NCBI GenBank assembly: GCA_003508835.1
Contig: PUFA01000066.1
Location: 5,536,501 to 5,600,500 of the forward strand
Length of the DNA stretch: 64,000 nucleotides
Reading direction: 5' to 3'
Source: Eonycteris spelaea
Lineage: Eukaryota > Chordata > Mammalia > Chiroptera > Pteropodidae
Under the pieces are notes generated by a model, which was not told where the DNA came from, made no database searches, and saw only the letters and a list, made by a program, of their open reading frames with translations. Positions 16,864 through 28,411 of this stretch are shown piece after piece. A program made the translations under genes and the position numbers. Positions within the stretch are counted from its first letter, which is position 1, and each line of letters opens with the position of its first letter.

Positions 16864-16974
16864 TTAACGCCGGCGGAAAGCGACGGGGAGCTCCCGGCTG
16901 GGCACCAGGATGCCTAAGTGCAGCGTCGTCACAGGCTCGCTGTCCGTGGCCACGATGTCGTATTTGCGGACGAT
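16864..16974 (-). CDS. CYP24A1: CYP24A1 coding exon 11, C-terminus and stop
   Basis: 111 nt including TAA (16864-16866), expected length. It encodes [36 protein letters not shown]. Compared with the recalled human C-terminus, about 9 of 36 residues differ, including the last three. A strong donor CAG/GTGAGC follows 10 nt after the stop (exon end 16854), so a further non-coding exon is expected. Confidence 0.93.

Positions 16975-28411: not shown

Follow-up and report, generated by a model that had tools for sequence, protein, structure and literature searches.

Seven short frameshifting deletions in a mammalian CYP24A1 locus are probably errors of the assembled consensus in an intact gene

The window, i.e., the whole stretch of 64,000 nucleotides of DNA analyzed here, carries CYP24A1 on the minus strand and PFDN4 on the plus strand. 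CYP24A1 comprises 11 coding exons, from 28411 down to 16864, whose ends were set by splice sites, and all ten introns begin with GT and end with AG. PFDN4 (41170–48373; coding exons 41170–41193, 45433–45540, 46299–46439, and 48242–48373) is an open reading frame of 405 nt without a frameshift, and 131 of its 134 residues are the same as in human. PFDN4 is thus the neighbor of CYP24A1, as it is in the human gene order. The locus is taken as that of the orthologous CYP24A1 of a eutherian, probably laurasiatherian, mammal; the adjacency to PFDN4 led us to discard a pseudogene derived from a stray duplication. Frame-disrupting lesions (seven frameshifts, described below) are found at this locus.

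The CYP24A1 region was translated in the three minus-strand frames. Its exons were then joined and compared with a 514-amino-acid consensus of 15 mammalian proteins by a frameshift-allowing dynamic-programming alignment with penalties for frameshifts and stops. The coding length is 1534 nt, versus 1545 nt for the consensus with its stop, and seven frameshifts were identified, all of which are deletions of 1–2 nt (six of 1 nt and one of 2 nt), distributed over exons 1, 2, 2, 6, 8, 9, and 10; the lesion positions are accurate to a few bases, as a protein alignment cannot pin the exact base. Exon 1 (28155–28411; 257 nt, GC 0.72) carries one deletion of 1 nt, placed by the alignment at 28330–28328 and by eye possibly up to about 28342. 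Exon 2 (27759–27946; 188 nt, GC 0.66) carries two, of 1 nt near 27844–27842 and of 2 nt near 27782–27781. Single deletions of 1 nt are located in exon 6 (21745–21855; 111 nt, GC 0.59) near 21792–21790, in exon 8 (18559–18724; 166 nt, GC 0.49) near 18586–18584, and in exon 9 (17694–17771; 78 nt, GC 0.55) near 17767–17765. Exon 10 (17075–17268; 194 nt, GC 0.56), which holds the heme-binding loop, carries a deletion of 1 nt near 17193–17191 and additionally the loss of one in-frame codon near 17176. Exons 3 (26521–26614; 94 nt), 4 (24573–24669; 97 nt), 5 (22499–22590; 92 nt), 7 (20209–20354; 146 nt), and 11 (16864–16974; 111 nt including TAA, GC 0.64) are free of frameshifts, and none of the 506 in-frame codons is a substitution stop. 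The original prediction of 11 exons with canonical splice sites between 16864 and 28411 agrees with this layout; furthermore, its count of seven frameshifting deletions proved exact in the frameshift-aware alignment, and the absence of substitution stops that it had noted was confirmed.

As assembled, CYP24A1 has no open frame of about 514 codons. The literal frame of exon 1 past the first lesion meets TGA at 28330–28328 and the frame is still shifted at the C-terminus, so that the lesions, if real, would make CYP24A1 null. Rescue by a downstream start was rejected because exons 6, 8, 9, and 10 are also frameshifted. The 2-nt lesion of exon 2 (27782–27781) adjoins the codon of Glu143 (macaque numbering), the in-frame deletion of which counts among the known loss-of-function alleles in humans.

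Upstream of the coding region, the 5′ untranslated leader (28409–28813, minus strand) matches the Rfam model RF02664 (Cyp24a1 IRES) over its whole length (model positions 1–404), ending on the start codon. Once a composition correction of 56.7 has been applied, the match scores 63.2 bits, with an E-value of 2.7e-15 in the window, which is below the Rfam gathering score of 191. Further upstream, a direct repeat at 28997–29011 (plus strand) was found by pattern match and is presumably of the vitamin D response element (VDRE) motif class; the pattern has seven matches in the window versus a mean of 3.0 in shuffled sequences, a number reached in 5 of 100 shuffles, and the repeat taken by itself would therefore carry little weight. 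A second VDRE-like repeat is seen by eye near 29098, where the pattern does not match. The preserved promoter of the original prediction is thus partly borne out, by the sub-threshold leader match over the whole model and, weakly, by the VDRE-like repeat.

The nearest solved structure is that of rat CYP24A1 (3k9v, 907.8 bits). A protein search in a set of approximately 5.8 billion proteins, clustered at 90%, scored the 7993 candidates sharing most words and yielded 612 matches, of which the top ones listed are mammalian CYP24A1. Among 36 eutherian rows, the best identities are those of Lynx (0.88; 374/425) and the bat Cnephaeus (0.876; 447/510). An intact CYP24A1 of the source species was not among the best 120 of the 612 matches, which would speak against an assembly error, a point weakened by the 90% clustering and by the limits on scored candidates and on listed matches. 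NCBI tags proteins with suspected assembly indels as LOW QUALITY PROTEIN, and this tag occurs on one of the best 120 homologs, that of Acomys russatus. A protein tree of 39 rows left the placement of the window’s CYP24A1 unresolved, with 15 non-laurasiatherian eutherian rows grouping without it (support 84/83), and its end branch is 0.12 versus a median of 0.074. Mammalian DNA was looked for in a collection of viral contigs, where a pattern matched 192 stretches; none of these codes for a relative.

Between the lesions, the encoded protein is that of a well-conserved P450 enzyme: 450 of 506 residues equal the mammalian consensus, and the 15-residue heme loop, the ExxR motif of the K-helix, and the GVETT motif of the I-helix are kept. 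Changes are found at 5 of 281 near-invariant columns, a rate of 0.018, which ranks 11th of 37 eutherian rows; similar or higher rates are found in tenrec (0.040), chinchilla (0.031), naked mole-rat (0.025), and rat (0.018), and 26 rows are lower; a few of the rows with higher rates (pangolin, elephant seal) seem to stem from poor gene models. All ten functional positions checked carry the macaque residue, the reading of residue 143, which borders a lesion, depending on lesion placement; these are positions at which a substitution impairs human CYP24A1, as is given for R396 in PMC10494500. Compared with functional eutherian CYP24A1 (represented by rat 3k9v), the window’s copy shares the conserved residues, P450 motifs, splice sites, leader, and PFDN4 neighbor and differs in the seven frameshifts and one missing codon as assembled; the aardvark row likewise lacks the codon missing from exon 10.

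A genuine and recent loss of CYP24A1 would mean that selection was released and that seven frameshifting deletions were gained before stops or splice changes. The lesions exist in the sequence as given, the neighboring PFDN4 is undamaged, and the branch of the protein exceeds the median length, all of which are consistent with such a loss. Unitary pseudogenes of mammals, as a general class, likewise show several disruptions of the frame at the orthologous locus. In decayed genes, however, stops, splice damage, and altered conserved residues would be expected alongside indels, and these signs of relaxed constraint were not found in CYP24A1, which differs from unitary pseudogenes in having no excess of any of the three. 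The absence of stops among the in-frame codons, the ten canonical introns, and the few near-invariant departures all argue against loss.

Neutral decay was simulated by random substitutions on the in-frame codons, which included 278 near-invariant columns; sites were assumed to be uniform and transitions to make up 2/3 of the substitutions. After 30 random substitutions, five or fewer departures were obtained in 0.9% of 1000 runs, and 60 random substitutions lead to an expectation of 2.0 stops. The joint probability that seven or more indels, no stop, and five or fewer departures occur together is 0.0094, 0.0012, 0.0004, and 0.00006 at 5, 8, 10, and 14 substitutions per indel, respectively, each figure of this simple model being the highest obtained between 0 and 156 substitutions with 200 runs per step. 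These ratios are mammalian values, among which one indel per five substitutions is generous, and even there the joint probability argues against genuine loss. The test is lenient towards decay because the five departures include those expected in a working gene. The simulation thus indicates an excess of short indels over protein-damaging substitutions in CYP24A1, and genuine loss appears very unlikely.

If the loss were true, a mammal would be living without the main breakdown route of 1,25-dihydroxyvitamin D3. In people, loss of CYP24A1 can lead to elevated 1,25-dihydroxyvitamin D and to hypercalcemia, according to PMC10494500. In the literature naming CYP24A1, no report of its loss in a mammal was found in titles and abstract openings. 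A possible exception is a figure legend in PMC4076195 naming an event for CYP24A1 and CYP27A1, the kind and lineage of which are unspecified in the text passages, and the part of PMC4964396 consulted lists CYP24A1 orthologs widely, Laurasiatheria included. A laurasiatherian-like mammal that very recently came to be without CYP24A1 and tolerates it, so recently that indels but hardly any damaging substitutions have accumulated, is regarded as a very improbable reading of this locus.

The distribution of the lesions provides several signs regarding an origin in the assembly. Six of the seven lie in exons with a GC content of at least 0.55 (939 of 1534 nt) and one in the remaining 595 nt, a GC bias that is not significant (binomial p 0.053 when PFDN4 is counted among the low-GC sequence). 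PFDN4 serves as a control: at the CYP24A1 rate, 1.85 frameshifts would be expected and none is seen in its 405 nt, an outcome with a chance of 0.16 in a gene whose exons 2–4 have a GC content of only 0.38–0.39. In the window, 27 of 143 C/G runs extend from five to six bases versus approximately 41 predicted from the four-to-five rate of 0.287; this step at six (binomial p 0.005, Fisher p 0.011) is post hoc and is only suggestive as a sign of error. The scarcity of homopolymers of at least six bases in the window concerns C/G and not A/T. Lesions at long homopolymers are typical for some read types only. The exon 1 lesion adjoins a run of five C and is the only one of the seven with a run of at least five equal bases within 12 nt on either side, so that homopolymer compression alone is insufficient as an explanation. 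Long runs survive in the window, up to 25 bases for A/T and up to 12 for C/G, so that the assembly cannot be called crude. In view of these surviving runs and the six lesions outside long runs, homopolymer truncation was not accepted as proof of a single sequencing technology.

It is very probable that CYP24A1 is intact and that the frameshifts are deletion errors of the assembly consensus. This reading is favored because the indels are too numerous given that damaging substitutions are nearly absent, every lesion is a short deletion, and six of the seven lie in the exons of higher GC content. Most likely, indel-prone reads would have been incompletely corrected in this GC-rich and CpG-rich locus and would have left seven deletions in the consensus. 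The missing bases would then exist in the animal, and the gene would most likely encode a working mitochondrial 24-hydroxylase. The original prediction had set gene loss against an assembly with indel errors, and the evidence favors the latter, given the indel excess, the lack of stops, and the restriction to short deletions. In vertebrate assemblies, false indels increase with GC content and toward 5′ exons and yield false frameshifts, as described in the part of PMC9516821 consulted. The window’s CYP24A1 resembles the false gene losses from assembly indels reported therein (Genome Biol 2022), in which small indels affect GC-rich exons of otherwise sound genes, although those errors were recognized via reads and a second assembly, whereas those proposed here are deduced from one assembled sequence. 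The case illustrates how a sound gene can mimic a dramatic loss, and that frameshifts taken alone mislead unless stops, splice sites, and conserved residues are considered with them.

A mixture of the two origins, in which one or two disabling variants are real, either as a null allele in the individual or as a recently fixed first lesion, and the others are errors, would fit the conserved protein, since after one early lesion the remaining codons would be unaltered. Six of the seven lesions are, however, alike in size, and no direct evidence points to a mixture, which is considered highly improbable. An intact gene with consensus errors at all seven sites remains the preferred reading.

The base composition of the window is that of CpG-rich DNA. 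The observed/expected ratio of CpG is 0.59 across 1–64000, with values of 0.44 to 0.81 in all 4-kb blocks (15 of the 16) except the last (60001–64000), which is at 0.31. In mammalian DNA outside islands, this ratio is usually nearer 0.2–0.3. A ratio above 0.6 belongs to the definition of a CpG island according to PMC12050414. One process that would raise the ratio is GC-biased gene conversion: the share of FYMINK residues in the window’s CYP24A1 is 0.221, the lowest of 37 eutherian rows, although that of GARP residues, 0.258, is not the highest (Molossus, 0.271). A young interspersed repeat family was not found by self-comparison of 1–64000 (ungapped, at least 45 bases), which returned simple repeats only and would miss single-copy or indel-rich families. 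That the window is a computed ancestor or another synthetic sequence would explain the missing young repeats, the many CpG, and the small exon gaps, but such a sequence should have a short branch, whereas the branch of the window’s CYP24A1 is long and some of its near-invariant columns hold private residues. The window also contains perfect microsatellites, for example (AG)22; a reconstructed ancestor was therefore rejected on branch length, and this origin is barely conceivable. A head pattern of tRNA-derived SINEs has two matches in the window versus a mean of 6.0 in shuffled sequences, and no tRNA gene was found in the window. Weak matches to the mir-544 family, both below the gathering score, are located at 20569–20664 and 51456–51553; each is probably a copy of an old DNA transposon.
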